Shown here: piece by piece, positions 1 to 13,222 of the stretch
How positions within the stretch are numbered: position 1 is the stretch's first letter
Layout: every line of letters begins with the position of its first letter
Source of the DNA: Enterobacter hormaechei subsp. hoffmannii
GTDB lineage: Bacteria > Pseudomonadota > Gammaproteobacteria > Enterobacterales > Enterobacteriaceae
Assembly (NCBI RefSeq): GCF_001729745.1
Contig: NZ_CP017186.1
Location: forward strand, 1,488,001-1,552,000
Direction of reading: 5' to 3'
Length of the DNA: 64,000 bases
The notes under the pieces: generated by a model
The model's database searches: none
The model's input: the letters and a program-made list of their open reading frames with translations, nothing else
Told to the model about the DNA's origin: nothing
Made by a program: the position numbers and the translations under genes

Positions 1-2
1 TA

Positions 3-1211
3 ATGGCTTTCTACGCCTGGACGGCGACGAGTGCCGCGGGAAAAACCCAGCGCGGGACGTTACAGGCCGAGGGACAGAAGCAGGTTCGCCAGTGGCTTCG
101 CGAGCAAAAGCTGATGCCCGTGAGTATCACCGAAACCCGCGAAACGGCGACAGGCGGGAAAGCGAAAACCGGGGCGAAGCTCTCTACCCCGGTGCTGTCG
201 ATGTTTACCCGTCAGCTTTCGACGCTGGTGAACGCCGCGCTGCCGCTGGAAAGTGCGCTGAAGGCGATCTCTAAGCAGACGGAAGATAAAAAGCTGGCGG
301 CGATGGTGGTGGAGATCCGCGAGAAGGTGGTCGAGGGGCATACGCTGTTCGACGCCTTTAGCCAGTTTCCACGCACCTTCGACAAACTTTACTGCACGCT
401 GGTGATGGCCGGTGAAAAGACCGGCCACCTGGGCGACGTGCTGGAGAAGCTGGCGGAGTACAACGAGCAGCGCCAGAAGATGAAAAGCAAGCTGACACAG
501 GCGATGGTCTACCCGATTACCCTCACCGTGGTCGCTATCGCGGTGATCGGCATTCTGCTGGTGGCGGTGGTGCCGCAGGTGATTGAGCAGTTTACCCACA
601 TGAAACAGCAACTGCCGATCACCACCCGGACGCTGATTGCGGTAAGTGATTTCCTGCAAGCCTGGGGTATCTATATTGTCGGCAGCCTGGCGGGGGCGTT
701 CGTCGGCTTCAAAACCTGGGTGCGAAACGTGAAAAACCGTTTTCGCTGGCACAGCTGGCTGGTGAACGGCTCGCCGATTAAAAAGCTGGTGTGCGCCATC
801 AACAGCGCCCGCTATATCCGTACCCTGAGCATTTTGCAGGCCAGCAGCGTGCCGCTGCTGGAGGGGATGTATATCGCGATGGACGGTATTGAAAATCTCT
901 ATGCCCGGCAGGTGCTTGAGCAGGCCGCCGATACCGTACGTCAGGGGGCGTCGCTGTATGCGGCGCTGGAACAGGCGAAATTATTCCCGCCAACCATGCT
1001 GTATATGATTGCCTCCGGTGAAGAGAGCGGGGAATTAGGTAATTTAATGGATCGCGCGGCGGAAAATCAGGAATCGGCATTACAGCATCGAATTACATTA
1101 ACGCTGTCGGTATTTGAACCGGCGCTGGTGGTATCCATGGCGACGATTGTTTTATTCATCGTTCTTTCAATATTACAACCGCTTCTGCAACTTAATAATA
1201 TGGTAGGTTAA
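3..1211 (+). CDS. gspF: Type II secretion inner-membrane platform protein GspF
   Basis: GspF is the polytopic inner-membrane platform protein of the type II secretion system; it couples the cytoplasmic ATPase GspE to pseudopilus assembly. The 402-residue protein has the usual family length and two repeated T2SS-F domains (about residues 70-195 and 270-395). Hydrophobic segments lie near residues 168-190, 218-240 and 375-395. The first three bases of the window, TAA, overlap the ATG (TAATG), which is how gspE would end if it lies just upstream as in other gsp operons. The gene is followed 3 bases later by gspG. The family assignment is firm; the upstream gspC-D-E genes are outside the window and inferred. 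Confidence 0.95.
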   Translation: MAFYAWTATSAAGKTQRGTLQAEGQKQVRQWLREQKLMPVSITETRETATGGKAKTGAKLSTPVLSMFTRQLSTLVNAALPLESALKAISKQTEDKKLAAMVVEIREKVVEGHTLFDAFSQFPRTFDKLYCTLVMAGEKTGHLGDVLEKLAEYNEQRQKMKSKLTQAMVYPITLTVVAIAVIGILLVAVVPQVIEQFTHMKQQLPITTRTLIAVSDFLQAWGIYIVGSLAGAFVGFKTWVRNVKNRFRWHSWLVNGSPIKKLVCAINSARYIRTLSILQASSVPLLEGMYIAMDGIENLYARQVLEQAADTVRQGASLYAALEQAKLFPPTMLYMIASGEESGELGNLMDRAAENQESALQHRITLTLSVFEPALVVSMATIVLFIVLSILQPLLQLNNMVG

Positions 1212-1214
1212 ATC

Positions 1215-1664
1215 ATGGCTCTAAAACGTAAAAACCTGGCTCGCCAGGCGGGCTTCACATTGCTCGAATTAATGGTGGTGATTGTTATTCTTGGCGTTCT
1301 GGCGAGTATGGTAGTGCCAAACTTAATGGGTAATAAAGAAAAAGCGGATACGCAAAAGGCGACCAGCGATATTGTCGCGCTCGAAGGCTCGCTGGATATG
1401 TATAAGCTGGACAACCACCGCTACCCGACCACAGAGCAGGGTTTGCAGGCGCTGGTGACGAAGCCGGAAATCGCACCAATCCCGAACGGCTATCGCGCGG
1501 ATGGCTATATTCGCCGCCTGCCGCAGGATCCATGGGGCAGCGATTATATTCTGGTCAGCCCAGGTGAACACGGTGCGGTGGACATTTTCTCTGCGGGTCC
1601 GGACGGCGAAGCGAATACTGCCGATGACATTACCAACTGGTCTCTGGATAAGAACGAGAAGTAA
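1215..1664 (+). CDS. gspG: Major pseudopilin GspG
   Basis: GspG is the major subunit of the T2SS pseudopilus, the periplasmic filament that pushes folded exoproteins through the secretin. The 149-residue protein has a short basic leader ending at Gly13, then a type IV pilin N-terminus (FTLLELMVVIVILG) with Glu at mature position 5, so GspO should cleave after Gly13 and methylate Phe14. The GspG hallmark YPTTEQGLQALV follows, and the C-terminus has the calcium-loop type DGEANTADDI. Its stop overlaps the gspH start (TAATG at 1662-1666). It is the second gene of the visible operon. Confidence 0.96.
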   Translation: MALKRKNLARQAGFTLLELMVVIVILGVLASMVVPNLMGNKEKADTQKATSDIVALEGSLDMYKLDNHRYPTTEQGLQALVTKPEIAPIPNGYRADGYIRRLPQDPWGSDYILVSPGEHGAVDIFSAGPDGEANTADDITNWSLDKNEK

Positions 1665-2149
1665 TGAAAAATCAACGCGGCTTTACGTTGCTGGAAATTA
1701 TTCTGGCGCTGGTGATATTTGCCAGCTGCGCCATGATGGTGGTGTCCACCATTCCTTCGCGCAGCGGCGCGGATATATTTGGCCAGCAATTAAAAGCGCT
1801 CGTTGATTATGGTTCAGACCGTGCGGTGATGGACGGAAATATTGTCGGGCTGGTGATCGCCACTGATAAATATCAGCTGGTGACGATCGCGGATAAAAAT
1901 GGCGAGCGTCACTGGGTGCCATTATCTGCCGGACGTATTACCACCAAAGGTGATTTTCCGGAAGAGATGCACGTGTCGCTCTCGCCGCAGCGCCTGGCCG
2001 CGACGGTGGCGTCCGAGCCACAGGTGATCTTTTTACCGGACGGTGAAATCAGCCGCTTTACGCTGACGCTGCAAAGTTACGACAAACAGCACCATTTCCG
2101 CGTGGTGTCGCAGGGTGCGGCGCCGGTATCGGTAGAAAACGATGGCTAA
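1664..2149 (+). CDS. gspH: Minor pseudopilin GspH
   Basis: This is a minor pseudopilin of the type II secretion system, 161 residues. The very short leader MKNQRG is followed by FTLLEIILALVIF, a prepilin cleavage site with Glu5 and a hydrophobic N-terminal helix of about 20 residues. The remainder is a GspH-type beta-rich periplasmic domain with little conserved sequence. It overlaps gspG at its start and gspI at its end (2142-2149), consistent with translational coupling in one operon. GspH is thought to join the pseudopilus below the GspI-J-K tip. The assignment rests on order plus the pilin signature. Confidence 0.93.
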   Translation: MKNQRGFTLLEIILALVIFASCAMMVVSTIPSRSGADIFGQQLKALVDYGSDRAVMDGNIVGLVIATDKYQLVTIADKNGERHWVPLSAGRITTKGDFPEEMHVSLSPQRLAATVASEPQVIFLPDGEISRFTLTLQSYDKQHHFRVVSQGAAPVSVENDG

Positions 2150-2522
2150 CGACAACACAAAGCAAAAGGGGATGACGCTGCTGGAGGTGATGGTCGCGCT
2201 GGTGATTTTCTCCACCTCCGCGCTGGCGCTAATGAACTCGGTCTCCCTGAACGTGCGTTTTACCCATGGTCTGGCCGATACCTTGCAGGCCAGTTGGGTG
2301 GCGGAAAATCAGCTGGCGGAAGCGCAACTCACCAAAACCGACTTCCCGGATGCTGAGCAGCAGGGGACGGAAATCATGGGCGGGCGCAGCTGGAACTGGC
2401 GTAAGCAGCGGGTGAAAACCGCCGACAACGGCTGGGCGAACTCCATTCGCGTCTATGCGGAAGGCGATGAGAGCCAGCCGGTTGTTTCCCTGCACATCAT
2501 TCCGCCGGGAGAGAGCAAGTGA
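2142..2522 (+). CDS. gspI: Minor pseudopilin GspI
   Basis: GspI is a minor pseudopilin of 126 residues and part of the GspI-J-K complex that nucleates the T2SS pseudopilus tip. The leader ends at Gly10 and is followed by MTLLEVMVALVIF, so the first mature residue is Met rather than Phe, which is common in GspI. Glu5 is present. A motif typical of the family follows the helix (WVAENQLAEAQL). It overlaps gspH by 8 bases and gspJ by 4 (ATGA-type junction), so all pseudopilins should be made in a coupled way. Confidence 0.93.
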   Translation: MANDNTKQKGMTLLEVMVALVIFSTSALALMNSVSLNVRFTHGLADTLQASWVAENQLAEAQLTKTDFPDAEQQGTEIMGGRSWNWRKQRVKTADNGWANSIRVYAEGDESQPVVSLHIIPPGESK

Positions 2523-3172
2523 AGAAAACGCGACGCCAGCGCGGATTTACCCTGCTGGAGATCATGATTGCGCTGACTATTTTCGCGGTAATCAGCACCC
2601 TGGCCTGGCAAATTCTGGACGGCGCGATGCGTACCAGCTCGGCCACCGATGCCAGTGCCGCTAAGCTCAACCAGCTTCAGCGCGGCTGGAGTCTGATGGA
2701 GCGCGACTTTTTCCAGCTACAGGCGCGAGCGCCGCGTAATGAGCCAGAGCGGTTCCGTCAGGAGGGCGATGCCCTTGAACTGACCACCCTGAATGGCGTG
2801 AGCGGAACGGTCCAGCTGGAGCGCGTGCGCTGGCGGCTGGAAGAGGGGCGTTTGTACCGCGACGTCTGGCCGGTCATTGACGGCCCGGTGGACGTTAAGC
2901 CTGACGAAGTGCCGATTGTCAGCGGTGTTAAAGCATTGCAGTGGCGGTTTTATCGTCAGGGCTGGCTGACATCCTGGCACGACGCCGCCCATCTGCCGGA
3001 CGGCGTGGAGGTTACGTTGACGATGGAAAACGGGGATACCTGGCGCTGGGTGTTCACCACGCCGGGGGATATGCCGGAGGTGGCCGCTGCCGCGGCCCCA
3101 GAGAAAGCCGCCGACGCGCCTGCGACGACTCCGGACGCAGCCCCTGCGCCTTCGCCGGAGACCAGACCATGA
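2519..3172 (+). CDS. gspJ: Minor pseudopilin GspJ
   Basis: GspJ is a 217-residue minor pseudopilin, the third tip component with GspI and GspK. The start codon is GTG at 2519, overlapping the gspI stop. The leader MKKTRRQRG is followed by FTLLEIMIALTIF with Glu5 present. The GspJ hallmark LNQLQRGWSLMERDFFQL lies near residues 48-65. The C-terminal 30 residues are an Ala/Pro-rich low-complexity tail (AAAAAPEKAADAPATTPDAA), longer than a minimal GspJ core would need. The stop overlaps the gspK start as ATGA (3169-3172). Confidence 0.93.
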   Translation: MKKTRRQRGFTLLEIMIALTIFAVISTLAWQILDGAMRTSSATDASAAKLNQLQRGWSLMERDFFQLQARAPRNEPERFRQEGDALELTTLNGVSGTVQLERVRWRLEEGRLYRDVWPVIDGPVDVKPDEVPIVSGVKALQWRFYRQGWLTSWHDAAHLPDGVEVTLTMENGDTWRWVFTTPGDMPEVAAAAAPEKAADAPATTPDAAPAPSPETRP

Positions 3173-4179
3173 ACCGAATCCGTCAACAAAAGGGCGTCGC
3201 CCTGCTGGTGGTGCTGATTTTGCTGGTGATGATGTCGGCGCTGGCCGCCAAAATCAGCCAGCAGTTCTGCCGTAATTTGCAGAAAACGCATTATCAGATA
3301 AGCCAGCAGCAGCTGCGCTGGGCGATGCAGGCCCAGGAAAAAGTGGTGAAGGACAGGTTACAGACCGATGCCAGCGGCGAGAGCAAGCCGCTGGCGCTGG
3401 ACGGCGACTGGCATCAGCCGCTGGAGACGCAGGGAGAAGACTACACGGTCGTGAGCCAGGTGGAAGACGCTCAGGACTGCTTTAACGTCAATAACCTGTT
3501 GACCGCCGACGTCGCGCCCCAGGGGCAAAGCGCTCCCGCGGTGGCGGAAAAACCGCGTAAAGAGCGGATTGTTGAACAACTCCTGACGGAAAGCGGGCTC
3601 AGTCCGGGCACGGCGGAGGCGGTCTATTTCCAGCTGGTGGATTATCTCGATGGTGACAGCACCACGGCGAAAGAGGGTGCCGAAAGCGATGCGTGGGCTG
3701 GCGTCGTGCCCGCCCGGCAACCGGCAAACCAGATGATGCGCAGCATCGCGGAGATCAAACTGCTGCCAGCGTTCCCGGTTACGGCATATCCGAAGGTGAG
3801 CAAGCTTTTATGCGCGCTGCCGGACGCCGCCAGCAAGGTGGACGTTAACACCCTGCAACCGGAACAGGCCGTGGTGCTGGCGGCCATGTTTCCGGGAAAA
3901 TTCACGCAGGATGACGCGGTTCGTCTGCTGGATACACGTCCGGAATCGGGCTGGGAAAATATGGACGCGTTCAGCAAAGCGCTGGAGCAGACCTTCCCGC
4001 AGTTAAAAGACGATCTCCCGCAGGTGGCAGATCAATTTTCTATAAACAGCCGGTACTTCCGCGTGAATTACAGCGGCAATACCGATGAATTAACGCTTCG
4101 CGTGGTCAGCCAGCTTCAGATGAATAACGAAGCCGGTGAGATCGTGACGTGGCAGCGTCGTTACCGAATGATTGAATAA
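3169..4179 (+). CDS. gspK: Minor pseudopilin GspK (pseudopilus tip)
   Basis: GspK is the large minor pseudopilin that caps the pseudopilus. I chose the ATG at 3169, which overlaps the gspJ stop and gives 336 residues with the leader MNRIRQQKG followed by VALLVVLILLVMMSAL; the open frame runs further upstream but out of phase with gspJ translation. As usual in GspK, mature position 5 is not Glu (Val here), whereas the other four pseudopilins keep it. The family motifs CFNVNNL (near residue 105) and SKVDVNTLQPEQ (near residue 222) are present. The protein should recognise or gate substrate at the filament tip. Confidence 0.94.
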   Translation: MNRIRQQKGVALLVVLILLVMMSALAAKISQQFCRNLQKTHYQISQQQLRWAMQAQEKVVKDRLQTDASGESKPLALDGDWHQPLETQGEDYTVVSQVEDAQDCFNVNNLLTADVAPQGQSAPAVAEKPRKERIVEQLLTESGLSPGTAEAVYFQLVDYLDGDSTTAKEGAESDAWAGVVPARQPANQMMRSIAEIKLLPAFPVTAYPKVSKLLCALPDAASKVDVNTLQPEQAVVLAAMFPGKFTQDDAVRLLDTRPESGWENMDAFSKALEQTFPQLKDDLPQVADQFSINSRYFRVNYSGNTDELTLRVVSQLQMNNEAGEIVTWQRRYRMIE

Positions 4180-4194
4180 GAAAAGTAGAACGTT

Positions 4195-5328
4195 ATGAAA
4201 CAGGTACTTTTTGTTCGCCCCGACAGCCGCGAGGGCGGGAAAATAATGTGCTGTGAGTCCGGCAGCGAGCGCGTCGAGGTGCTCGACAGCCTGGAGATGC
4301 TGGCCGAACACCCGCTGGCTACACGCGTTTGTCTCCTGCTGCCCGCCAGCGACATGATTTTCCGCCATTTCACGCTGCCGAAAAAGGTGGCTTCTCAGGC
4401 GATGGCCTTCTCGTGGATGGCGGAAGAGACGCTGATTGGCGACGTGGACAACCTTCACTGGACAGTGCTCTACAAAAAAGGCGCTGACGTCGACGCCGTT
4501 GCCATTGACGCCGACCGCCTGCGTGCGGCATTGACCCGCTGTCACGAGGCCGGATTAAACGTGATTCAGGCCCTGCCTGATGCCTGGCTGCTGCCCGTGG
4601 CGGCAGGGGGCAGCACGCTGGTCGCACAGGATAAAGGCTACTGGCTGCGTTTATCTCCCCACGTGGCGGGTGAAATGGAGGGAACCCTGCTGCCGCTGTT
4701 GATGCAGAAAGCCGGAGACGGGGAAGTGTGTTGCTACGGCGACGCGCCCGCGGACGTTCACGTTGACGTACAGCATGCCTGGCAGCACCCGCTGGTGCTG
4801 ATCCAGCCGCAGTGGAAAACCTGTCGTGTGAATCTGCTTCACGGTGAATTCAGCCTTAAGGCCGGTCATGGCCAGGCCGCAAAAAGCATGAAAGCAGCGA
4901 TGATAGCGGCGGGCCTGCTGTCCGTTGGTCTGCTGCTGGGGCCGCGCATTGCGATGGCCTGGATGCTGGTGCAGCAGGAAAATCGGGTTCAGCAGGAGAT
5001 CGTTCAGGTTTATCAGCACCATTTCCCCAGCATGCGCCAGCAGACCAATATCAAATATCACTTTGGCCAAAGCCTGAAAAAACAGAGCAAGGGGTTCTTT
5101 CTTCAGCTTGAGGAGCTGGAGAAAGCCCGGCAGTCAGTCCCTGCGATGGAGATCGATCTGCTGGAATACGATGCGCAGCAAAACACCCTGACGCTGAGCG
5201 TTAGCGCGCAAAGCCAGCCCGCGTTGCAGGCGTTTGTGAACCAGACCAGTGAGAATTTTGATTTTACCTTACAACCTGTTTCAACAACCGAACCGTATAC
5301 CGCCATGATCGCAGGGAAACATAAATGA
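4195..5328 (+). CDS. gspL: T2SS inner-membrane/cytoplasmic linker GspL
   Basis: GspL is a bitopic inner-membrane protein of the T2SS assembly platform. Its cytoplasmic actin-like N-terminal domain binds GspE and its periplasmic domain binds GspM. The 377-residue protein has an N-terminal domain of about 225 residues (for example FRHFTLPKKVASQAMAFSW near 60-78), one membrane segment around residues 232-252 (AAMIAAGLLSVGLLLGPRIA) and a ferredoxin-like periplasmic domain. It starts 15 bases after gspK with an AGTAGAACGTT spacer and overlaps gspM by 4 bases. The sequence is divergent, as in most GspL proteins; gene order supports the call. Confidence 0.93.
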   Translation: MKQVLFVRPDSREGGKIMCCESGSERVEVLDSLEMLAEHPLATRVCLLLPASDMIFRHFTLPKKVASQAMAFSWMAEETLIGDVDNLHWTVLYKKGADVDAVAIDADRLRAALTRCHEAGLNVIQALPDAWLLPVAAGGSTLVAQDKGYWLRLSPHVAGEMEGTLLPLLMQKAGDGEVCCYGDAPADVHVDVQHAWQHPLVLIQPQWKTCRVNLLHGEFSLKAGHGQAAKSMKAAMIAAGLLSVGLLLGPRIAMAWMLVQQENRVQQEIVQVYQHHFPSMRQQTNIKYHFGQSLKKQSKGFFLQLEELEKARQSVPAMEIDLLEYDAQQNTLTLSVSAQSQPALQAFVNQTSENFDFTLQPVSTTEPYTAMIAGKHK

Positions 5329-5810
5329 AAGAGCGAATCGCGCAGCTGAAATCACGCTATCAGAATTACAGCGCCCGGGAAAAAATCATTTTAAAAATAT
5401 GTGCCGTTGCCATTGTGGGGGCTGCGGTGTATTACACAGGAGTAATTCCCCTGGATAATATGATTCAAAATAGTAAATCGACGCTTAAAAGACAAAAAGA
5501 GACGCTCAACTGGATGCGCAGTGAAATTGATAAAAATCATCTTCAGGTCCAGTTAGTTAAAACGAATAATCCGCGTACGGTGGTCGAGAACAGCGCTCAT
5601 GAAATTAATCTTTCACTGACGGATGTGCGCCAGGAGGGGCAAACTTTATCGTTCGTGGTGAATCGGGTAAATGTATATGAATTAAAAAGCTGGCTGCGTG
5701 AAATTAATCAGACCTCCGGCGTGACATTGCAAAAAATAAACCTCACGCCGGTTGACCACCTCAGCGATGTGAAAGCACAGGTGCAGCTTACCTGGTCAAA
5801 AAGCGCATGA
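5325..5810 (+). CDS. gspM: T2SS inner-membrane protein GspM
   Basis: GspM is a small bitopic partner of GspL in the T2SS inner-membrane platform. The 161-residue protein has a short basic cytoplasmic tail (MKERIAQLKSRYQNYSAREK), one membrane segment (about residues 22-42) and a periplasmic domain starting with a coiled-coil-like stretch (SKSTLKRQKETLNWMRSEID). The C-terminal ferredoxin-like fold ends in AQVQLTWSKSA. It overlaps gspL at the start and gspO at the end. No gspN lies between gspM and gspO, which matches the short enterobacterial gsp operons. Confidence 0.92.
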   Translation: MKERIAQLKSRYQNYSAREKIILKICAVAIVGAAVYYTGVIPLDNMIQNSKSTLKRQKETLNWMRSEIDKNHLQVQLVKTNNPRTVVENSAHEINLSLTDVRQEGQTLSFVVNRVNVYELKSWLREINQTSGVTLQKINLTPVDHLSDVKAQVQLTWSKSA

Positions 5811-6604
5811 ATACCTTCACGCTGATGCGGGAGGCCTGTCCGCTCGGTTTCCCGATGATGAGTGCTATCCTGGGCGGGATTATGGGCAGTTTTCTCGGCG
5901 TTGTTGCCGAGCGCGTACCGGGAATGGTGATGGATGAGGAGGGGAGCGGCAATCTGCTCTTTCCTGCCTCGCACTGCCCGGTGTGTCAGCACACGCTTGC
6001 TGCATGGGAAAATATCCCGCTGCTCAGTTGGCTGTTATTACGGGGGCGCTGCTACCAGTGCGGCAGCGCGATCCCACTGCGACTCTTTTTGGTGGAACTG
6101 TTCTCCGCGCTGTTTTTTGGCATCACGGCCTGGTGCATGCCGGACGTTCAGGCGCTGTTCTCTTTGTGGTTACTGGCGGCTTTTTTACTGCCGCTGGCCA
6201 TGATCGACTGGCAGCATCAGTTGTTGCCGGACTGCCTGACCCAGCCGCTGCTGTGGGCGGGGTTAGTGCTCCATGCTATTGACCACACATTGCCGCTACG
6301 TGATGCGCTGTTTGGCGCGGTGGCGGGCTATCTGTCGCTCTGGCTGCTCTACTGGGCTTTTCGTCTGATCGCCGGACGAGAAGGGCTGGGTTACGGGGAT
6401 TTTAAGCTACTGGCGGCGCTGGGCGCCTGGTGCGGCTGGCAGGCATTACCCTCCATTGAACTGGCGGCAGCGTTAAGCGGTATTGTCGGTTATTTCGCCG
6501 TCAATAATTTAAATAAAAATAACCTCACTATTTCTTTTGGTCCTTACCTCGCCTTTTCTGGAATCGTGGTGTTTATTAGTCAGCAGTTTGCTTTCACATT
6601 TTAA
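5807..6604 (+). CDS. gspO: Type II prepilin peptidase GspO (PilD-like)
   Basis: GspO is an inner-membrane aspartyl protease that cleaves the Gly|Phe junction of GspG-K leaders and N-methylates the new N-terminus. The 265-residue protein shows the cytoplasmic zinc loop with two CxxC pairs (HCPVCQHTL and RCYQCGSAI), about seven hydrophobic segments, and the two catalytic Asp regions MIDWQHQLLPD and GLGYGDFKLL (GxGD). It overlaps gspM by 4 bases and is the last gene of the operon. No obvious Rho-independent terminator follows within 50 bases. Confidence 0.96.
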   Translation: MNTFTLMREACPLGFPMMSAILGGIMGSFLGVVAERVPGMVMDEEGSGNLLFPASHCPVCQHTLAAWENIPLLSWLLLRGRCYQCGSAIPLRLFLVELFSALFFGITAWCMPDVQALFSLWLLAAFLLPLAMIDWQHQLLPDCLTQPLLWAGLVLHAIDHTLPLRDALFGAVAGYLSLWLLYWAFRLIAGREGLGYGDFKLLAALGAWCGWQALPSIELAAALSGIVGYFAVNNLNKNNLTISFGPYLAFSGIVVFISQQFAFTF

Positions 6605-9560
<2,956 letters not shown>

Positions 9561-9570
9561 TCTAACCCAT

Positions 9571-9603
9571 TAATTACTCCCCCCTTCTGAGGGGGAGTAA
9601 TTA
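9571..9603 (+). terminator. Strong hairpin after the GH18 chitinase gene
   Basis: A perfect 13-bp inverted repeat (TAATTACTCCCCC / GGGGGAGTAATTA) begins 10 bases after the chitinase stop codon. No T-run follows directly on + (TTAAAAATTC), so it may be a weak terminator or a 3'-end protecting structure rather than a full stop to transcription. The next gene begins 60 bases further on. Confidence 0.55.
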
Positions 9604-9662
9604 AAAATTCATTTTACAGGATGTTTCTAAGGAGAAATAACCAATAAAGTCAGCAGGTAAAA

Positions 9663-10103
9663 ATGAAAAAGCTCATTTTGTTGTTATTAATAATAAGCCA
9701 GGGTGCTCTGGCAAACTGTTGGGATAAAGCGGCGCGTTATTATCATGTCGACCCTTATTTACTGTACGCGATAGCGAATGTGGAATCCGGTATGAATCCG
9801 TACGCGGTTGGGAAAAACCGCGATGGCACGCGGGATGTCGGGCTGATGCAAATCAACAGCTCGCATTTTACCGCGCTGGAAAGCAGAGGCATCGATGAGT
9901 ATCGCTTAATGACCGAGCCGTGTACCTCCATCATGGTGGGTGCCTCCATTCTCTCCGGAATGATAAGAGTATATGGCTATAACTGGGAAGCGGTAGGCGC
10001 TTATAACGCCGGGTTGAAGAAAGAGAATTATCCGCAGCGGATGAAATATGCCCATAAGGTCTGGGCTAAATATCAGCAATTAAAATTAGCAGCACGCGAT
10101 TAA
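9663..10103 (+). CDS. Small exported lytic transglycosylase (SLT domain)
   Basis: This is a 146-residue periplasmic or secreted lytic transglycosylase of the SLT family, which cleaves the MurNAc-GlcNAc bond of peptidoglycan. The signal peptide is MKKLILLLLIISQGALA (cleavage probably after Ala17). The catalytic Glu is Glu41 in AIANVESGMNPYAVG; the other family motifs are GLMQINSSHF and VGAYNAG. Size and motifs match the specialised transglycosylases found with secretion systems and conjugative pili (IagB/IpgF/VirB1 type) rather than housekeeping Slt or Mlt enzymes. It lies between two chitinase genes on the same strand, next to the gsp operon, which suggests a role in passage through the cell wall or co-secretion; that role is inference. 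Confidence 0.9.
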   Translation: MKKLILLLLIISQGALANCWDKAARYYHVDPYLLYAIANVESGMNPYAVGKNRDGTRDVGLMQINSSHFTALESRGIDEYRLMTEPCTSIMVGASILSGMIRVYGYNWEAVGAYNAGLKKENYPQRMKYAHKVWAKYQQLKLAARD

Positions 10104-10237
10104 CGTTTTTTATTTTTGAAGAATTCCTGAAGGTGTTCTTCGAAAAGTGAAAACAGCTGAATGTGGTTTATGTATTAACGGAATAATACCTAAGCCGGGA
10201 TATTAACATTTAATTTGAAACGAACAGGAAAACTGAA

Positions 10238-12064
10238 ATGAACAAAAGGACGTTACTGAGTGTACTTGTTGCTGGTGCTTGCGTTGCACCTTTTATGGCG
10301 CAGGCCGCCTCTTTGCAGGCGACCACCGGCGAGCCGTACACCATGAAAGCCAGCGATCTGGCGAAGAAAGAGCATGAGCTCACTAACTTCCCGCTGATGG
10401 CCTCCGTTAAAGAGACTATTCAGACCCTGGACAACGCGCAGGTCGAACTGATTGAGCCAGGCCGCGCGGCGAACCCGGACAACGTCAAACGCGTTGAAGG
10501 GATTGTGAAAGCCAGCGACTGGGAATATCTCTTCCCGCTGCGTGCACAGGCTTATACCTACAGCAACTTCCTGAAAGCCGTGGGTAAATTCCCGGCGCTG
10601 TGTAAGACCTACAACGACGGTCGTGACAGCGACGCTATCTGCCGCAAAGAGCTGGCGACCATGTTTGCCCACTTTGCCCAGGAAACCGGCGGCCACGAAA
10701 GCTGGCGTCCGGAAGCCGAATGGCGTCAGGCGCTGGTCCACGTGCGTGAAATGGGCTGGAGCGAAGGGCAAAAGGGCGGCTATAACGGCGAATGTAACCC
10801 GGACGTCTGGCAGGGACAGACCTGGCCTTGCGGTAAAGACAAAGACGGCGATTTCCTGAGCTATTTCGGACGCGGTGCGAAACAGTTGTCCTACAACTAC
10901 AACTACGGTCCATTCTCTGAAGCGATGTACGGCGACGTGCGTACCCTGCTCGATAAACCTGAGCTGGTGGCGGACACCTGGCTGAACCTGGCCAGTGCTA
11001 TCTTCTTCTTCGCCTATCCACAGCCGCCAAAACCAAGCATGTTGCAGGTGATCGACGGTACATGGCAGCCGAACGATCACGATAAAGCCAACGGCCTGGT
11101 CCCGGGCTTCGGTGTAACAACCCAGATCATCAACGGCGGCGTTGAGTGCGGCGGCCCGACTGAAATTGCGCAGTCTCAGAACCGTATCAAGTATTACAAA
11201 GAATTTGCGAACTACCTGAAAGTACCTGTTCCGGCGAACGAAGTGTTGGGTTGCGCCAACATGAAGCAGTTTGACGAAGGTGGCGCAGGCGCCCTGAAGA
11301 TTTACTGGGAACAGGACTGGGGATGGAGCGCGGATACCCCGGACGGCAAGACTTACTCTTGCCAGCTGGTGGGCTATCAGACACCGTTCAGCGCGTTCAA
11401 AGAGGGCGACTACAGCAAGTGCGTGCAGAAGTTCTATAACGTGAATATCGTGAATGACGACGGTTCCTCGGTGACGCCGGACGAAACCCCGGTCACGCCA
11501 ACGCCAACACCTTCTGAAGATGTTACGCCGGCCCCAACGCCAGCGCCAGTTCCGGATGAAACTCCGGTTGAACCTGTCGCGGTGAACCACGCGCCGGTTG
11601 CGCAGATTGCGGGCCCAATCGGTGCCGTTGAAGCGGGCGCGCAGGTTTCTCTGAGCGCGGAAGGCTCTACCGACGCAGACGGCAACAAGCTGACCTACAC
11701 CTGGCGTTCTCAGGATGGCCAGACCGTGACCGGCGAAGATAAAGCGGTGGTGACCTTTAAGGCGCCTGAGTCTGCAACGGCGCAGCAGTATGAAGTGAGC
11801 CTGACCGTCAGCGATGGCGAGCTGAGCAGCACCACGTCTTACCTGCTGAACGTGAAAGCGAAAGCGGCAACGCCATCCGGAGAAGATACGTCTTACCCGG
11901 CATGGAGCGCGAACAGCAAGTACAACGCCGGTGATATCGTGAACAACCACGGTAAACTGTTCCAGTGCAAACCGTTCCCGTACAGCGGCTGGTGTAACAG
12001 TGCGCCGACGTACTATGAGCCGGGTGCAGGCCTGGCATGGGCTGAAGCCTGGACGGCTCTGTAA
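10238..12064 (+). CDS. Secreted GH19 chitinase with PKD and chitin-binding modules
   Basis: This is a family 19 chitinase, an inverting enzyme unrelated in fold to GH18. The 608-residue protein has a signal peptide (1-23, ending AQA-A), an N-terminal region, a GH19 catalytic domain (about 95-400, with [14 protein letters not shown] and catalytic Glu149), and a Thr/Pro/Glu-rich linker (about 410-448). A PKD-like domain (about 450-545) and one C-terminal CBM5/12 module (about 555-608, [14 protein letters not shown]) follow. GGAECGGPT-like and [14 protein letters not shown] segments are typical of GH19. The ribosome binding site CAGGAA lies before the ATG. The domain plan mirrors the GH18 neighbour, so both are likely exported by the same T2SS and act together on chitin. 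Confidence 0.92.
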
Positions 12065-12150
12065 AAGCAAACGGCAACCCTCGGGTTGCCGTTTTAATGT
12101 TTGCACCCTCTACCTGTGGGAGAGGGCCGGGGTGAGGGCATCAGTCCGCA
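12062..12150 (+). repeat. Composite terminator-plus-palindrome repeat, copy 1
   Basis: This 89-base unit contains a TAAAAGCAAACGGCAAC-type terminator, a spacer (TGTTTGC), and the palindromic block CCCTCTACCTGTGGGAGAGG followed by CCGGGGTGAGGGCATCAGTCCGCA. An 89-base copy with the same order and only a modest number of differences lies at 31618-31706 behind clpA. The palindromic block resembles a short dispersed repeat I associate with Enterobacter/Klebsiella genomes, but I know no accepted name for the combination. Confidence 0.75.
12069..12095 (+). terminator. Rho-independent terminator after the GH19 chitinase
   Basis: Stem AAACGGCAACC / GGTTGCCGTTT with a CTCG loop, followed by TTAATGTTTG, five bases after the chitinase stop. 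It closes the chitinase region and is part of the 89-base composite unit listed separately. Confidence 0.85.
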
Positions 12151-12208: not shown

Positions 12209-13222
12209 TTACCGGTGCAACTTCCCGTGATCCCGTAACCACGCCGCCGTACGCACTATCCCTTCATCGAGCGAGATAATCGGTTTATACCCCAGCTCGT
12301 TCTCCGCCCGAGAAATATCCAGCGTAAAATCGAAGTTGAGCTTCGACACACCGTAATGCGTCAGCGCAGGCTCTTTCGCCGATTTACTGCCAAAGCGCTC
12401 CATGCTGCGGGCAATCATGTCCAGCATCGGGTAGGGAACGGAACGGATCCGGCAGTCGATTTTTAACTCATCAATCAGCCTTTGCACAATGCTGCGCAGG
12501 GTACAGGGTTCGCCGTTGGTGATGTTATAGGCGCGGCCCGACACCAGCTTATCGCACTCCGGCTGGCTCGCCAGCCACATGGCGTGAACGGCATTTTCGT
12601 AATAGGTCATGTCTACCAGCGCATCGCCGCCGCGCGGTAACAGCACGCTGCCGTAATGGTGCATCATCTGGGCCAGTCGCGGGATAAAGACTTTGTCGTG
12701 CGGCCCAAACAGGCTCTGTGGTCGCAGCACGGTAAAGCGGGTGTGCGGATTTGACTGGGCCAGCAGGTCGATCACCTCTTCGCCAGCCGCTTTACTGCGG
12801 GCAAATTCACAGGCAAAGCGCGCAGGGCGGAAATCTTCCTGAATATCACGATGATGGTGATAATCAAAATAGAGCGACGGGGAAGAGATATGAATAAAGT
12901 TACGCACGCCCCAGGCGACGGCCCATTCGCCCAGACGGCGCGTGGCGCGCACGTTGGCGAGATCGAAGGCTTCCTGGGTACCCCACGGGGAGGTAAAACT
13001 GGAGCAGTGCCACAGCGTATCGATACCGGCGAGCATCACCTTGGCCTGAGAGGAGACCAGCTCCGTCAGGTCGGCATGGACAAACTCAGCGCCCATTTTT
13101 TGCAAGAGCTTGCCCATCGCCTCGTTGCGACCGGTGGCCCTCACGCTGATGCCTTTGTTGCGCAGAAATTCGACCGCATTTCGGCCTAAGCCGCTGGTCG
13201 CCCCGGTAACCAGTACCTTCAT
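12209..13222 (-). CDS. ybjS: NAD(P)-dependent epimerase/dehydratase-like protein YbjS
   Basis: This is an extended short-chain dehydrogenase/epimerase family protein with a Rossmann motif [15 protein letters not shown] at residues 6-20. I chose the ATG at 13222 ([11 protein letters not shown]), giving 337 residues as in E. coli YbjS; the longer frame to 13285 lacks conserved sequence. A FDYHHH stretch sits where many family members have the YxxxK active site, and [11 protein letters not shown] follows, so catalysis may be atypical. The substrate is not established. It is first in the ybjS-ybjT-ltaE group in E. coli order and is read leftward. Confidence 0.9.

Follow-up and report, generated by a model that had tools for sequence, protein, structure and literature searches.

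The window analyzed here is a 64,000 nucleotide stretch of Enterobacter hormaechei subsp. hoffmannii DNA (contig NZ_CP017186.1, positions 1,488,001 to 1,552,000). Its left end is occupied by an island in which type II secretion system (T2SS) genes are followed by genes for a GH18 chitinase, a small lytic transglycosylase (LT) and a GH19 chitinase. The main subject of this report is the LT and its possible relation to the T2SS.

Genes of the island

The LT gene is at positions 9663..10103 on the + strand and encodes a predicted 146 amino acid protein of the IagB/EtgA type (NF011856, 243.6; cut-off 208; also found by Pfam). Among solved structures EtgA, from the T3SS of enteropathogenic E. coli, ranks first both by sequence (8urn, 3.9e-22) and by match to the predicted fold (8urn, 3.2e-8; predicted local distance difference score of 90.7). 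Weaker matches in both sequence and fold include lysozymes. Positions Glu41 and Asp58, which we take to be the catalytic residues, are invariant in all 106 aligned rows; structure 4xp8 bears the title EtgA D60N. By these matches the protein belongs to a family of secretion-machine LTs. The first-pass annotation had placed it in a three-enzyme chitin and wall-degrading cassette, which is probably wrong for this member of the set. Pfam shows neither a CBM nor a PKD domain in the LT.

The LT reading frame has no internal stop in 50/50 matches from the genus. A rough count gives a median ratio of nonsynonymous to synonymous change (dN/dS) of 0.065 over 16 comparisons, with dS near saturation, which is indicative of purifying selection. 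The guanine-cytosine (GC) content of the gene is 47.2%, that of its neighbours 54–58%. The possibility that the LT belongs to a type III secretion system (T3SS) of the same genome was rejected, as no T3SS SctV protein is found there above the cut-off (best score 599 bits vs 692).

The GH18 chitinase gene (6858..9560, +) encodes an enzyme of the Serratia ChiA type, with a ChitinaseA_N domain (PF08329, 194.7 bits), a GH18 domain, PKD/Ig domains, a proline-rich linker and two CBM5/12 modules (PF02839, 54.8 bits in two stretches; cut-off 26.2). The DxxDxDxE motif reads DGVDIDWE and is at residue 306. The closest solved structures are Serratia ChiA-like (8w96 and 1edq). The genome has two GH18 genes. 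An assignment to the E. coli type of ChiA was rejected because a search of the E. coli K-12 gsp-chiA region with the catalytic domain gives nothing at 1e-5. The comparison with E. coli ChiA drawn in the first-pass annotation is thus a loose one, the E. coli chitinase being of another type and its locus being without such an LT. Relatives of the E. coli-type chitinase (61–70% identity, approximately 560 residues) are present at loci L044, L046, L152, L154, L173 and L174. An Rfam match to MIR1432 at 9126-9195 on the − strand (31.9, gathering threshold 90) is taken as chance.

The GH19 chitinase, the only one in the genome, is encoded at 10238..12064 (+) and has the GH19 domain (PF00182, 132.6; cut-off 25.5), a PKD domain and a CbpD/GbpA-like C-terminal module. 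Both chitinases had been thought to end in CBM5/12 modules. This holds for GH18, but the GH19 score for PF02839 is 23.6 bits and falls under the 26.2 cut-off. Its tail instead matches CbpD (7sqx, 2.9e-13), GbpA (8gul) and the module 6z41, presumably a CBM73, among solved structures. CbpD and GbpA are T2SS substrates, and the tail is therefore compatible with GH19 being T2SS cargo, although it is not proof. The PKD/Ig domains present in both chitinases were absent from the earlier description. The signal peptides it assigned to the three enzymes are in agreement with a signal-peptide-like stretch at the start of GH18, LT and GH19, judged by eye and with no predictor.

The T2SS genes in the window begin with gspF at 3..1211, which encodes the inner-membrane platform protein (TIGR02120, 478.2 bits, cut-off 424; also found by Pfam), and continue on the + strand with the major pseudopilin gene gspG at 1215..1664 (TIGR01710, 176.5, cut-off 88.85; N_methyl motif). 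The minor pseudopilin genes are gspH at 1664..2149 (PF12019, 32.5, cut-off 21), gspI at 2142..2522 (PF02501, 65.9, cut-off 25) and gspJ at 2519..3172 (PF11612, 85.4, cut-off 28), each with an N_methyl motif, and gspK at 3166..4179 (NF037980, 243.9, cut-off 130). These are followed by gspL at 4195..5328 (TIGR01709, 215.6, cut-off 65), gspM at 5325..5810 (PF04612, 115.5, cut-off 27.8) and the prepilin peptidase gene gspO at 5807..6604 (PF06750 and PF01478, both above cut-offs). NCBIfam equivalog cut-offs are passed by GspF, GspG, GspK and GspL, and there is Pfam support for all of GspF to GspM and for GspO. The first-pass annotation described gspF-O, then GH18, LT and GH19, on the + strand; order and strand are borne out, with the exception of gspN, which was not seen among the reading frames of the window.

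The T2SS locus continues upstream of the window (L003), where gspC, gspD and gspE are on the + strand and gspA and gspB on the − strand. GspA, GspC, GspD and GspE score above Pfam cut-offs, and GspA displays a C39-like and a peptidoglycan-binding domain. GspB has no Pfam match and is named from its position and its linked relatives. Secretin, ATPase, platform, pseudopilins and prepilin peptidase thus form a complete T2SS in one locus. A single further GspF-family gene is found in the genome, away from the island, and is presumably HofC. A genome search for a pilotin, limited to the GspS type (PF16549) and not extended to PulS/OutS, found none, thus GspA/GspB may help the secretin.

At the left edge of L003, amiD (named by position) is followed by a gene for an HTH_46-domain regulator and then by gspBA. 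The right flank of the island is ybjS, at 12209..13222 on the − strand. The E. coli K-12 junction is closed, with a 4 bp overlap of amiD and ybjS. In the genome analyzed here it is filled by the regulator gene, gspBA, gspC-O without gspN, GH18, LT and GH19, which supports the reading of an island inserted beside ybjS. HTH_46 regulator genes edge the T2SS island at two chromosomal sites (L003 4658-5344 and L046 10230-10883), and the gene is a possible regulator of the island.

The statement that the gsp genes run directly into the enzyme genes is overstated. There are gaps of 253 bp between gspO and GH18, 102 bp between GH18 and LT, and 134 bp between LT and GH19, and there are terminator-like hairpins. 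One of these, with a 14-pair stem, is between GH18 and LT at 9570..9604 (+), and similar inverted repeats are seen by eye in several relatives. Another is at the island end, after GH19, at 12069..12094 (+). A scan for terminator-like sites shows no overall excess (8 found, 6.8 expected), nor does a promoter scan (3 found, 4.5 expected). The gaps and hairpins may be compatible with one operon or with several transcription units. An imperfect palindrome, TTTTTGAAGAATTCC..GGTGTTCTTCGAAAA, is at approximately 10114-10146, directly 3′ of the LT stop codon and ahead of GH19; a similar sequence is present in most of 14 aligned leaders.

The GH18 leader carries a conserved hairpin at 6798..6820 (+), of the form CCATG-loop with GGA-CATGG, which has a 6–7 bp stem with GGA in the loop and is 37 nt before the start codon in the window. 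It was aligned in 48 distinct GH18 leaders out of 55 taken, from the window and loci L059-L067 (of which L066 has no GH18), L039-L043, L163-L165 and L177-L214. Pairing is found in 90.2% of cells, vs 18.8–50.0% when the partner is slid. Changes on both sides occur at 4 pairs, a number reached by 28/500 shuffles; the covariation score exceeds all 500 shuffles, although relatedness inflates such scores. By eye, a G-C to A-U change in the stem is seen in L187 and L194, and a stem that is apparently different yet complementary in L183. GGA is present in 47 of the 48 leaders (by eye), the exception being L067. The pattern has a single match in the window, with 0.05 expected, and no Rfam family match. 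The consensus site for CsrA is a GGA in a hairpin loop near the start codon. The leader hairpin is thus a candidate CsrA-type site by its sequence, but a palindromic operator would covary likewise.

Occurrence of the island in related genomes

The genus sample consists of 61 genomes, with coordinates compared by eye. Island GspK was counted when full-length and at 60% identity or more, the LT at 75% or more, and GH18 when a match had the expected spacing on that contig. Intact island GspK is present in 48/61 genomes, and the LT and a linked GH18 in all 48 of these, the GH18 match being partial in G190, G194 and G167. GH19 is present in 40 of the 48, and all eight genomes without it keep the LT. 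The idea of a dedicated secretion-plus-cargo island therefore stands as regards linkage (GH18 48/48, GH19 40/48) but is weakened by GH19, which is found separately in 4/45 genomes.

Intact island GspK is missing from 13 genomes, nine of which have no GspK or LT match. In G178 (L160 10572-14843) gspD-F are lost and gspC, gspG, gspH and GH18 are truncated, while LT and GH19 are open. G149, which is 78% complete, has the island in fragments and an LT match of 55%. G200 shows a 58% LT match beside genes at L162 that we take for T3SS genes, and, at L173, a GspK of 31% identity next to a chitinase of the E. coli type. G201 has a 31% GspK alone.

GH19 is found in 45 genus genomes, and four of these (G155, G193, G200, G206) are without island GspK, LT and full GH18. 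In G155 a lone GH19 remains between amiD and ybjS; an IS1 transposase gene (L169 3101-3604) lies between amiD and GH19 and apparently marks loss of the remaining island. In G200, G206 and G193 the GH19 gene sits away from the amiD-ybjS site. In G206, Pfam identifies its neighbours as a LydA-type holin gene, an endolysin gene (GH108), a LysR regulator gene and a GH18-like gene, along with a further small gene; the G193 copies are 77–85% identical to them. By sequence this GH19-holin-endolysin set is like a type X secretion system (T10SS). Such sets are at L171 3617-8228, L172 and L176, in genus genomes without island GspK. A match to the GH19 query in L157 was rejected as it is not to the catalytic domain. 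GH19 is thus only loosely attached to the island, being present in 40/48 island genomes and also in four genomes without the T2SS.

The LT stays when the cargo genes change. In addition to the eight of 48 islands without GH19, locus L066 has the LT directly after gspO with no GH18 between them, and GH19 and ybjS are present. In G003 and G099 the order is gsp, GH18, E. coli-type chitinase (61% identity), LT, with other flanks; here that ChiA replaces GH19 and the LT is kept. The L066 record is labelled Chryseobacterium yet carries an enterobacterial T2SS-LT-GH19-ybjS set, with gene matches of up to 89% in Enterobacteriaceae, and is probably contaminated.

Among 149 genomes of the family there are 27 GspK loci above cut-off, in 26 genomes. 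Stretches of approximately 10 kb on each side, some ending at contig ends, were fetched for 19 loci of 18 genomes, plus one locus below cut-off. The LT adjoins 8 of the 27 loci. Carriage of the island by E. coli was rejected, since a megablast of 6858-12064 against an E. coli collection gives no match. Carriage of the LT cassette on plasmids was rejected also: among the 5,000 matches listed all are below 60% identity, and the best is annotated as T3SS iagB.

A second T2SS-like lineage with an LT of the same family

Of 521 loci with LT relatives the best 80 were named, and the orders and counts given here rest on those. They comprise 9 loci of the island type, 18 of a second T2SS-like cluster, 28 that are T3SS by marker genes and 25 unassigned. 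Eight of the nine island loci come from genomes already in the genus sample (L065 is G150) and are counted there only. The second lineage comprises 21 loci, i.e. the 18 above and three from the family sample, two of which are in one genome.

The gene order in this lineage is GspG, LT, GspF-like, GspE-like and a secretin with a lipoprotein-like start, with further pseudopilin-like genes. GspG is above the TIGR01710 cut-off in both loci tested. In the one locus tested for them (L071), GspF, GspE and GspD are under the T2SS equivalog cut-offs, thus T2SS-like is the safe name. The LT is between GspG and GspF, on the same strand, in 21/21 loci, a figure that speaks of the position of the LT and not of its frequency, since the lineage was found through its LT. 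A chitin-active gene, either an AA10 lytic polysaccharide monooxygenase (LPMO) or a GH18, is in the fetched stretch of 17 of the 21 loci, the LPMO being identified by Pfam in L071, L081, L099 and L128. No such gene is near the LT in any of the 28 T3SS loci or the 25 unassigned loci (0/53 together). The hosts include Pseudomonas, Pandoraea, Burkholderia, Trinickia, Glaciimonas and Rouxiella. In a survey of 394 Enterobacterales genomes that is independent of the LT, the GspF-like gene of the second lineage is found in three, and in two of these an LT adjoins it. In G194 the island coexists with a locus of the second lineage (L216 615-2670) that has an LT of its own. G032 has two second-lineage loci (L053, L051) near open reading frames that by eye look fimbrial or usher-like; the stretches fetched there show neither a chitinase nor an LPMO match.

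In the LT tree, island LTs join mostly enterobacterial T3SS LTs at a 38-row node (22 island, 15 T3SS, 1 unassigned; support 96/91), and second-lineage LTs are placed apart from them. Some genomes entered the tree twice; it omits two incomplete sequences, a partial LT (L057) and an LT remnant (L161). A single clade of island and second-lineage LTs is rejected (approximately unbiased test, p 5.75e-7), and island LTs as a single clade are compatible with the data (p 0.471). The simplest reading of the tree is that the island and the second lineage would have recruited their LTs separately.

Possible role of the LT and comparison with known systems

The locus may be regarded as a chitin-use island of Enterobacter-type bacteria in which the LT is a periplasmic assembly factor for the T2SS, recruited from the T3SS LT family. 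This reading is given a probability of about 0.6. The GspAB-type T2SS would export the ChiA-type GH18 enzyme and, probably, GH19. We infer that the chitinases are dedicated cargo from their linkage, their signal-peptide-like starts, their architecture and the known T2SS export of related proteins. By analogy with EtgA in the T3SS, the LT would make local cuts in the glycan strands of peptidoglycan and thereby let secretin and pseudopilus through the wall; such a peptidoglycan-opening role would make it a machine part and not cargo, although it lies between two cargo genes. The second chitin-linked T2SS-like lineage would have gained an LT of the same family separately. The chances are about even for the broader proposal, that chitin-degrading T2SSs have at least twice recruited a dedicated peptidoglycan-opening LT from a family of the T3SS and type IV secretion kind, possibly as large multi-domain chitinases or fast induction need quick insertion of the machine.

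Several points weigh against an assembly role. The LT is located among the cargo genes, outside gsp and behind a terminator-like hairpin, so that it may have its own promoter or a cargo role. Its co-occurrence with the island in the genus mostly reflects one island kept or lost whole and not independent events, and G178 keeps an open LT despite a broken T2SS. In the family sample, 19 of the 27 GspK loci have no LT in the fetched stretch, at least four of these 19 (L151, L152, L154, L155) have a GH18 gene, and no LT match is found in the gsp-chiA region of E. coli K-12. Thus T2SSs, including those linked to chitinases, do not generally need the LT. Housekeeping LTs may serve T2SSs that are without it, since loss of etgA in enteropathogenic E. 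coli is reported to lower injectisomes by only about 40% (PMC9250224). As to the second lineage, related Pseudomonas contribute many of its loci, the position count is limited as described above, and the third locus of the independent survey (L217, 37% identical) has no LT between G and F. The tree is based on 124 columns, its bootstrap is not settled and the order of events is not resolved.

A location between two cargo genes, a signal-peptide-like N-terminus and the lysozymes among the weaker matches would also suit an LT that is a third secreted enzyme, i.e. a lysozyme-like cargo acting against the walls of competitors or aiding on chitin. This is unlikely, as the LT has no chitin-binding or linker domain, unlike both chitinases, and its nearest named relatives are secretion-machine LTs. 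In addition, the second-lineage LT sits inside the machinery genes, and the island LT is retained where either chitinase is missing. Still more doubtful is a function similar to that in the T10SS, where the LT would loosen peptidoglycan for the chitinases themselves and not for T2SS assembly. Release of Salmonella ChiA requires a holin and a peptidoglycan hydrolase (PMC10109510), and G206 and G193 have homologous GH19 genes with a holin and an endolysin. The island LT however has its own signal-peptide-like start and adjoins a full T2SS, eight of 48 islands with the LT have no GH19, and a search of the window with the L171 holin, the one holin family covered, finds no homologue. Very improbable is an LT that is a passenger from a lost T3SS or conjugation locus with no role in the T2SS, which would account for the mostly enterobacterial T3SS LTs nearest to it outside the island, its low GC content and its persistence in G178, but not for its 50/50 open frames, conserved residues and low dN/dS, nor for the presence of the same LT family in the second lineage.

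If the LT does act in T2SS assembly, the T2SS has a wall-crossing enzyme of a kind that T2SSs are usually thought to lack. Passage of the T2SS through peptidoglycan is little understood, and a T2SS with its own LT would make the question directly testable by deletions and a simple chitinase assay, the genus being readily grown and mutated. The T2SS-chitinase island has been described before; what merits experiment is the LT associated with the T2SS in two lineages. GH19 is found in one genus beside either T2SS and LT or holin and endolysin, and these two export settings lend themselves to a natural comparison within a single enzyme family.

A limited search found no literature linking an LT to a T2SS locus. 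A 2003 abstract by Koraimann on LTs in macromolecular transport reportedly names type II secretion, and for this reason the general idea of LTs serving the T2SS may already be in print. That envelope machines recruit specialised or housekeeping transglycosylases is stated in general terms only (PMC9239104). Dedicated LTs are listed for type IV pili and for type III, IV and V systems, type II not being among the entries of that list (PMC13059805).

The adjacency of T2SS and chitinase genes in E. cloacae was published in 2013. Strain ENHKU01 has the same arrangement of a T2SS (ECENHK_07365-07425) and two adjacent chitinases, 07430 (ChiA-like) and 07440 (Liu et al. 2013, PMC3771936). The numbering would leave room for one gene, 07435, between them, and the word transglycosylase is not in the main text of that paper (PMC3771936). 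The E. coli K-12 gsp-chiA region resembles the island in its divergent gspBA, its gspC-M and gspO, and the nearness of a chitinase gene to the T2SS. However its gsp genes are between rpsJ and bfr, at another chromosomal site, chiA is beyond bfd on the opposite strand, its ChiA is of another GH18 type, and the LT is not represented there. The T10SS, with its holin and peptidoglycan hydrolase (PMC10109510), is like the island in that chitinase genes are linked to a peptidoglycan-cleaving enzyme; the island differs in its T2SS, in an SLT-domain LT with a signal-peptide-like start, and in having no homologue of the L171 holin in the window. EtgA and IagB are in the same enzyme family as the window LT and have the same fold and active-site residues (PMC9250224, PMC11834469). 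They serve the T3SS, whereas the window LT adjoins a T2SS in a genome without SctV above cut-off. The Txc T2SS of Pseudomonas aeruginosa PA7 secretes the chitin-binding protein CbpE (PMC12369383), and secretion of chitin-directed proteins is a role that the second lineage would share with it.

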